From: Saccharospirillum mangrovi
GTDB lineage: Bacteria; Pseudomonadota; Gammaproteobacteria; Pseudomonadales; Natronospirillaceae
Direction: 5' to 3'
Assembly: GCF_003367315.1 (NCBI RefSeq)
Contig: NZ_CP031415.1
Location: 990,001-1,054,000, forward strand
DNA length: 64,000 nt
A program made the translations under genes and the position numbers. The notes beneath the pieces were generated by a model. It was not told the DNA's origin. It searched no databases and was given only the letters and a program-made list of their open reading frames with translations. Each line of letters starts with the position of its first letter. Position 1 is the first letter of the stretch. Positions 40,353 through 41,513 of the stretch are shown in pieces.

Positions 40353-40364
40353 GACCAACGTTTT
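40335..40364. terminator. Terminator hairpin spanning the lipA stop codon
   Basis: AACGTTGGTCT (40335-40345) and AGACCAACGTT (40352-40362) form a perfect 11-bp stem with a 6-nt loop that includes most of the lipA stop codon; TT and then ACG follow. The plus-strand U-tract is only four bases (two in the stem). On the minus strand the hairpin is followed by TGTTCTTTT, so it may also end the convergent regulator gene (stop at 40363). Confidence 0.7.
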
Positions 40365-41187
40365 ACGCCGGTTCGGCTAAGACGCGGGACACTTCGTTCA
40401 CCCGCGCCAAACCGGCTTCGTCCAGCCGCTCCAACCAGGGCAGCAGAATCGCAAAGTTGGCGTTCTGCGCTTGCCGGTACAGATAGACCGGCGTTTCTTT
40501 GGACAGCGACAGCGGACTGGTTCCTGTCGCCATCCAAAACCGCATGATCATGTTGACGCTGTAATGCGGGCACAACTCGGGCGTTTCGTATTTTTTATAC
40601 GCCGCCAAAGACACCCCCATCAACCGCGCCACTTCTTCCTGAGAAACCTCACGCTGCAAACGAAAGTCGCGCAGCTTTTCCGACACCGACCGATAGTAGG
40701 GGTCACGCAACAACCCCGCGCTCAGACTGCTGCGCAACTCAGCAACGCTGACGAACGGATTGGTTTCCGTGCTGTAGTCCCGCAATAAGCCCCGGAGTAC
40801 CGAGTGCAGGGCTTCCAACGCCCAATCGGGCGCGCGATTCACGAAATACAGCACCGGCACCCAGGCGGGTTTGAACGGCAACTGCAGCCATTGTTGGTAA
40901 CGGGTGCCATAGAACAACCAATGCGTTGGCAATCCGGTTTCCAGCGACCACAGCAGGGCGGAATGCAATCGGGGTAAATCCCGGCCGGCCTCGTACTTGC
41001 GGTATTGGCTGAGTGAAATCTGCATGCGCTCACTCAGACCGCGCTGACCCAGGCCCAGATGGCTGCGCACCGAACGCAGGTTCTGACCAATCTGATCGGC
41101 CAATGTTTCTTCAATGGTGGCGTAGTCGGGTGGCTCGCCCTGATGCGCCAGGAAGACTTCGGTCGGCGGCGCTTGGGGTTCAAACAT
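40363..41187 (-). CDS. Regulator with two tandem XRE helix-turn-helix domains
   Basis: 274-residue protein from the ATG at 41187; the open frame reaches 41244 but has no better ribosome site. Residues about 33-86 form one helix-turn-helix (LGQRGLSERMQISLSQYRKYE). Residues about 166-222 form a second (VSQEEVARLMGVSLAAYKKYE). The linker is rich in Trp and aromatic residues. I do not recognise a named family. It converges on lipA with only 10 bp between stops and is divergent from a candidate regulatory RNA starting about 70-80 bp upstream of it. Confidence 0.75.
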   Translation of the reverse strand: MFEPQAPPTEVFLAHQGEPPDYATIEETLADQIGQNLRSVRSHLGLGQRGLSERMQISLSQYRKYEAGRDLPRLHSALLWSLETGLPTHWLFYGTRYQQWLQLPFKPAWVPVLYFVNRAPDWALEALHSVLRGLLRDYSTETNPFVSVAELRSSLSAGLLRDPYYRSVSEKLRDFRLQREVSQEEVARLMGVSLAAYKKYETPELCPHYSVNMIMRFWMATGTSPLSLSKETPVYLYRQAQNANFAILLPWLERLDEAGLARVNEVSRVLAEPA

Positions 41188-41254
41188 GGCGTTTTTTATC
41201 GTAATTATGGCTACCTTTGTGACTGTACCACCGCTGGGGGTCATTGCAGAATAC

Positions 41255-41450
41255 GACTGCGCGCTGAAGGGAGTCTGGCGCCATCACAGGGAAGTGATAA
41301 CTTGCCTCAGCAAAGGCATAGGGAACAGCCGGGAAGGCTGGCTTTGCTGACAACGAGTCTCTTCTGCTTCACACCCTGGTTGTGAACGTTCTACAGACAA
41401 CCCTCACTTTTCCGTCCCCTTGCTCGTCCGCCGACTGCGGGCGAGTTTTT
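41255..41450 (+). ncRNA. Candidate CsrB/Rsm-type CsrA-sequestering small RNA
   Basis: This non-coding stretch has four GGGA motifs. ATCAC/GTGAT (41283-41287/41294-41298) exposes AGGGAA. CAGCC/GGCTG (41326-41330/41336-41340) exposes GGGAA. That hairpin and another GGGA (41321-41324) sit inside a 9-bp stem, TCAGCAAAG/CTTTGCTGA (41307-41315/41342-41350). A further GGGA is at 41269-41272. TTCACA/TGTGAA (41368-41373/41381-41386) follows, then an intrinsic terminator. The second motif, ACAGGGAAGU, differs at one base from the CsrA consensus ACARGGAUGU. I see no clear promoter or GacA-type upstream site, so the 5' end is approximate. Confidence 0.6.
41423..41450 (+). terminator. Intrinsic terminator of the candidate small RNA
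   Basis: CTCGTCCGC (41423-41431) and GCGGGCGAG (41437-41445) pair over 9 bp (one G-T) around a 5-nt loop, followed by five T residues. No plus-strand gene ends nearby: lipA stops over 1 kb upstream at its own hairpin. The terminator therefore implies a separate short transcript between 41188 and 41423. Confidence 0.88.
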
Positions 41451-41495: not shown

Positions 41496-41513
41496 CTGTA
41501 AATTCATACAGTA
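41496..41513 (+). promoter_or_regulatory. LexA operator of dinB
   Basis: CTGTAAATTCATACAGTA contains CTG-N10-CAG and is AT-rich, matching the gammaproteobacterial SOS box. A likely -10 hexamer TATATT (41512-41517) overlaps its right end, so LexA would cover the promoter. It lies about 35 bp before the dinB start and downstream of the small-RNA terminator. Confidence 0.92.

Follow-up and report, generated by a model that had tools for sequence, protein, structure and literature searches.

In the window analyzed here, a stretch of 64,000 nucleotides from Saccharospirillum mangrovi, the region between a tandem-HTH regulator gene and dinB carries what looks, from its sequence, like a real, conserved small-RNA gene that is free-standing and apparently non-coding. 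We best read its product as a CsrA-binding small RNA that resembles McaS or RsmW and lies outside visible Gac control. It seems reasonably probable that this genus-restricted, independently transcribed RNA binds a CsrA dimer via two invariant GGGA hairpins. Comparison of relatives shows that this two-hairpin GGA unit is preserved as the remainder of the RNA changes, and the finding adds a conserved small-RNA gene to Saccharospirillum.

In the source genome (G000; 3.69 Mb, single contig), the RNA locus has as its neighbors lipA, dinB, and, on the minus strand, the tandem-HTH regulator gene. The neighbor names lipA, lipB, dacA, and ybeD are those we presume from the translations; Pfam was searched with the HTH, dinB, and tetR-like proteins. 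A preliminary description of the region had reported four GGGA motifs, two of them in perfect hairpin loops, a 9-bp stem with an inner hairpin, and a terminator, all of which were recovered in place, and it had missed conserved hairpin 1, which displays the first GGGA (Table 1). The -10-like hexamer was not listed by a promoter scan, and the terminator scan returned one terminator-like site in 801 bases, the same as the mean of its shuffles. Boxes of the form CTGT-N8-ACAG, resembling the LexA-like box 5' of dinB, are also present in G002 and G004.

Table 1 Features of the small-RNA locus, in positions of the window.
Feature	Position	Strand	Remarks
Tandem-HTH gene	40363-41244	-
Conserved promoter box TGGYYACNTTTRTGRCTGT	41208..41226	+	Centre ~42 bases 5' of presumed RNA start; putative activator site
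-10-like hexamer CAGAAT	41247..41252	+	CARAAT across five orthologues
Presumed small RNA	41259..41446	+	~190 nt; start deduced from -10-like hexamer, end from terminator
Hairpin 1 GCGCUGAAGGGAGUCUGGCGC	41261..41281	+	GGGA in loop; seven stem pairs, all invariant in 5/5
Hairpin 2 AUCAC-AGGGAA-GUGAU	41283..41298	+	Perfect; as DNA ATCAC-AGGGAA-GTGAT
GGGA motifs	41269-41272, 41289-41292, 41321-41324, 41331-41334
Middle region	41307..41350		Holds two further GGGA motifs
9-bp stem TCAGCAAAG/CTTTGCTGA	41307-41315 with 41342-41350	+	Encloses GGGAA hairpin; unconserved as a block
Perfect hairpin CAGCC-GGGAA-GGCTG	41326-41340	+	Inside 9-bp stem
Invariant C-rich tract CGTCCCCT	41413..41420	+	Directly 5' of terminator; identical in 5/5
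Intrinsic terminator	41422..41446	+	10-pair stem-loop and T tail; in two stem pairs both sides differ among the five
Box CTGTAAATTCATACAG	41496-41511		LexA-like; 5' of dinB

The RNA block was located beside lipA in five of the six genus genomes (G000, G002, G004, G005, and G001). A DNA search of 57 relatives returned the copies in G002 (E 5.5e-32), G004 (3.5e-18), and G005 (4.3e-6); the G001 copy was missed by this search and was found by reading downstream of lipA, while the sixth genome, G003, had no RNA at that place and no match to model R1. In G000, G002, and G004 the RNA is situated between the HTH gene and dinB. In G005 and G001 it is flanked by lipA and a convergent tetR-like gene, and the stretches read around it contain neither an HTH gene nor dinB. 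Alignment of the five revealed conservation of the promoter box, the -10-like hexamer, hairpins 1 and 2, the C-rich tract, and the terminator. Per 10-column block, mean pairwise identity was 0.80-0.93 across the two hairpins, against 0.12-0.38 for the middle, where the two further GGGA motifs and the 9-bp stem could not be aligned; the length of the presumed RNA varies by species from about 135 to 210 nt. The five orthologues contain 4, 4, 3, 3, and 4 GGA motifs, two of which are conserved.

The named structure (hairpins 1 and 2 and the terminator) was paired in 100/100 cells of the alignment. RNAalifold, which was not told this structure, recovered all three elements; its input included the promoter, so the pairs it placed there mean nothing. 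Hairpin 2 keeps its loop AGGGAN and shows an A-U to G-C double change at the base pair in G005 and G001. The covariation score was 0.260 compared with 0.165 for shuffled alignments, was reached by 2/500 shuffles, and was at most 0.060 when the structure was slid; three pairs underlie it, two of them terminator pairs and the third a pair of hairpin 2. Of five covariation measures, two together with this score were reached by only 2/500 shuffles each, the number of pairs changed on both sides (three) was reached by 69/500 and the number of pair types by 407/500, and without the terminator none of the measures rose above shuffles (covariation score reached by 141/500 and 151/500). Hairpin 1 never varies and hence contributes no covariation, and the double changes are common to groups of related genomes and so represent few events. 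Compensatory changes, whose absence from relatives the preliminary description had named as a refutation, are thus present but few.

In the proposed mode of action, a CsrA dimer would dock on hairpins 1 and 2. In 5/5 orthologues, 17-18 nt separate the two invariant GGAs. According to the available portion of PMC7652899, CsrA bridges sites 10-63 nt apart, with a printed optimum of '>18 nt', which places this spacing inside the bridging range, at the lower limit of the optimum as printed; the two GGA sites within bridging range that we looked for in a McaS- or RsmW-like RNA are therefore found in all five species. When the hairpins were compared with the CsrA consensus given there, RUACARGGAUGU (PMC7652899), it was observed that hairpin 2 keeps ACAGGGA-N-GU, that both loops keep AGGGA, that hairpin 2 of G004 holds an exact ACAGGGAUGU, and that ACAGGGAAGT differs by one base from ACARGGAUGU, as had been noted before. 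The 5' part alone folded into hairpins 1 and 2 in 5/5 orthologues. In full-length predicted folds, hairpin 1 had a probability of 0.16 in G000, 0.49 in G002, 0.15 in G004, 1.0 in G005, and 1.0 in G001; the values for hairpin 2, in the same order, were 0.16, 0.12, 0.02, 0.01, and 0.00, so hairpin 2 is mostly displaced and may be masked. With just two GGGA hairpins conserved, the RNA is unlikely to be a large titrating sponge. We infer both the binding of CsrA and an effect on it: the presumably transcribed RNA would be either a minor CsrA antagonist with separate control or a riboregulator modulated by CsrA, alongside a CsrB-like RNA situated downstream of a GacA site.

The invariant C-rich tract is unexplained by CsrA binding alone, and it may be a base-pairing seed. 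The main alternative, rather doubtful though tenable, is a small RNA that acts by base pairing, with the invariant tract CGUCCCCU 5' of the terminator as its seed, hairpins that serve for stability, and no partnership with CsrA. Such an RNA would fit the identity of the tract in 5/5 although the preceding sequence is unalignable, and the predicted G000 folds leave the tract largely open. However, the tract is predicted to be paired in G004, G005, and G001, and the kept AGGGA loops and the ACAGGGA-N-GU of hairpin 2 are left unexplained. The predicted pairing of the C-rich tract is with the CAGGG of hairpin 2 (probability 0.89 in G004, 0.99 in G005, 0.94 in G001, 0.40 in G002, and 0.01 in G000), and in the first three of these species it is the tract that displaces hairpin 2 in the full-length folds. 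A speculative model built on these folds, to which we assign little likelihood, is a CsrA-gated riboregulator in which CsrA docking would free the tract from the CAGGG of hairpin 2. Once free, the tract would pair with the ribosome sites of mRNAs, and control would lie with a regulator other than Gac, whose box would also precede an HlyC-family gene in two species.

A cis-acting element, either an untranslated leader or attenuator of dinB or a part of the HTH gene promoter, would account for the position of the RNA between these two genes in three genomes. Nevertheless, it is a very unlikely explanation: the RNA is still present in the two genomes in which neither gene adjoins it, G005 and G001, and so is not a leader of those genes, and the terminator and the LexA-like box separate it from dinB.

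Taken by itself, the single sequence proves little, and only its GGGA density stands out. Four GGGA per 200 bases occurred in 3/2552 overlapping windows on both strands, all three at the RNA locus, and four GGA per 200 bases were reached by 18% of such windows. The + strand carried 8 pairs of GGA-loop hairpins (stem of 5 or more, 10-60 nt apart) and the - strand 3, whereas 20 simulated sequences averaged 7.95 per strand. The fold energy over 201 nt was at chance (z 0.22; 118/200 shuffles at least as stable), the G000 piece with hairpins 1 and 2 was no stabler than its shuffles (z -0.63; 43/200), and the hairpin pair had no extra stability in the three sequences tried (z -0.63, 0.49, and 0.43); the 48-nt piece with the 9-bp stem was stabler (z -2.25; 3/200). 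The anatomy is real, and with hairpin pairs and whole-length fold at chance, the weight rests on conservation. Chance motifs within an ordinary intergenic region would agree with these single-sequence values, but the block conservation over five species and the fully paired structure cells make this extremely improbable. A small protein gene or dual coding RNA, for which a GTG following the AGGGA-N of hairpin 2 in 5/5 could speak, is hardly credible either, as frames of 12 or more codons from this GTG exist only in G000, G004, and G001, with differing sequences, and the other listed short frames differ in start, length, and sequence; a reading frame common to the orthologues, which the preliminary description had held to be incompatible with its proposal, was not found among them.

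Regarding control of the proposed CsrA-binding RNA, the box TGGYYACNTTTRTGRCTGT was present in 5/5 orthologues, from which its pattern had been written, and its other matches at up to 2 mismatches were not above the reversed-pattern control. We infer an activator at this -42 box, which would control the RNA. By eye, the box forms one arm of a long inverted repeat in G005 and G001. In these two genomes, a similar inverted-repeat element was also seen 5' of a gene for an HlyC-family acyltransferase (L128 ~1475-1520 and L138 ~1475-1520); since the pattern counts do not exceed the reversed control, this link is suggestive only. The tandem-HTH protein was considered as a possible regulator of the RNA: its homologues (E 1e-15) were found in the five RNA-bearing genus genomes and not in RNA-less G003, but also in five family genomes without a known RNA copy. 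Those of G001 and G005 are distant (34% identity) and located elsewhere, and TGGTCAC is absent from the 500 bases upstream of them. The RNA suggests that Saccharospirillum may couple a second, non-Gac signal to CsrA.

CsrA was found in 22/22 family genomes, as a single-copy gene of ordinary sequence in G000, and a UvrY/SirA/GacA-family regulator exceeded the cut-off in 6/6 genus genomes. For the GacA upstream site, defined as TGTAAG-N6-CTTACA, the pattern TGTARG-N6-CYTACA matched six places in G000 at up to one mismatch, none of them at the RNA locus, in agreement with the earlier remark that no such site is visible there. As the reversed-pattern control gave 17 matches against these 6, the sites count by context only. 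Two exact sites exist in G000, C1:602558 and C1:3164599, both away from the RNA locus. Downstream of the former lies a CsrB-like stretch (L101; G000:C1 ~602150-602575, minus strand) that has many CAGGA motifs, with 13 GGA in the 330 nt following a TATAAT box. The CsrB-like RNA behind a GacA site thus lies elsewhere, and the RNA described here is a further GGA RNA with no visible Gac control. The site at C1:3164599 (L107) is followed by a GGA-containing stretch alike in G002 (L103), possibly a further Rsm-type RNA; its fold in G000 was no stabler than shuffles (z 0.60). In G004, two adjoining weak CsrB matches of 32.6 and 19.9 bits on the minus strand of L096 (1023-1749) are perhaps tandem csrB copies.

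An exact-pattern scan of one genome each for 84,980 species, which would miss diverged copies and from which the window's own record was perhaps left out, gave four stretches, all in Saccharospirillum: Saccharospirillum sp. MSK14-1, MAG M30B14, S. impatiens DSM 12546, and S. salsuginis KCTC 22169. Model R1 matched 8/194 genomes of the order at E up to 0.05, strongly in G000 (72.6 bits) and G002 (68.6). The other six matches (21-26 bits) were dropped, being fewer than the ~10 expected from E 0.05 per genome across 194 genomes, with rough E-values and strict filters. Copies of CATCACAGGGANGTGATG in G001 and G005 were considered as a multicopy RNA family and rejected: those of L007, L034, and L035 are repeats without hairpin 1, adjoined by tRNA-Gly and tRNA-Glu according to ARAGORN, and two further copies in L038, at a contig end where no tRNA was found, were counted and dropped likewise. 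Nothing was found for the RNA in plasmids or phages, and a search of the open-licence literature found no paper on Saccharospirillum small RNAs or CsrA.

In the window, Rfam yielded nothing at the gathering cut-off, and even at E up to 10 no Csr/Rsm family matched; the four orthologues gave no match at E up to 1, a weak test given that the CsrB-like L101 was also unlisted at E up to 1. Across the 22 family genomes, CsrB and PrrB_RsmZ were found over the Rfam cut-off in none (below it in five and four genomes, respectively), and RsmY in none among the matches listed. None of the RsmY, CsrB, or PrrB_RsmZ matches listed fell at the RNA locus; for RsmY, where only the matches listed were available, the search of the window to E 10 is the better test. 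The preliminary description had proposed a CsrA-titrating RNA of CsrB/RsmY type. Of this, the sequence supports a conserved RNA gene, free-standing and apparently without coding function, whose GGGA hairpins come near the CsrA consensus in a genome that encodes CsrA and GacA. It does not support the family assignment, for which both the Rfam match, a weak test here, and the GacA site are missing.

We regard the RNA as an extra one of known kind and not a standard CsrB or RsmY gene. Like CsrB/CsrC and RsmX/RsmY/RsmZ, it has GGA in hairpin loops and, at the sequence level, an orphan RNA gene with an intrinsic terminator; unlike them, it has neither Rfam match nor GacA site, and two conserved GGA hairpins. 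In Pseudomonas brassicacearum, RsmX, RsmY, and RsmZ contain 6, 7, and 10 GGA, as given in the accessible text of PMC7911923. CsrR1 and CsrR2 of Alcanivorax dieselolei, with nine and six GGA motifs and, for CsrR2, its own promoter, are likewise putative CsrA-related RNAs that are restricted to one lineage and come from a marine gammaproteobacterium, but in another genus, at another genome place, and with more GGA motifs (PMC9788540, from the part available). McaS of Escherichia coli is described, in the sections of PMC10729762 at hand, as having four GGA, two of which are CsrA sites, and as also being a base-pairing RNA. The Saccharospirillum RNA resembles it, by description, in its few GGA motifs and two candidate CsrA sites, whereas its own CsrA binding and targets remain putative. 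RsmW of Pseudomonas aeruginosa, as portrayed in the accessible pages of PMC4950607, has 3 of 7 GGA in exposed loops, is not activated by GacA, and is presumed to originate at the 3' end of an mRNA. The Saccharospirillum RNA is similar in its few exposed GGA loops and lack of a GacA site, and differs from RsmW in having fewer GGA motifs and its own promoter box and terminator.
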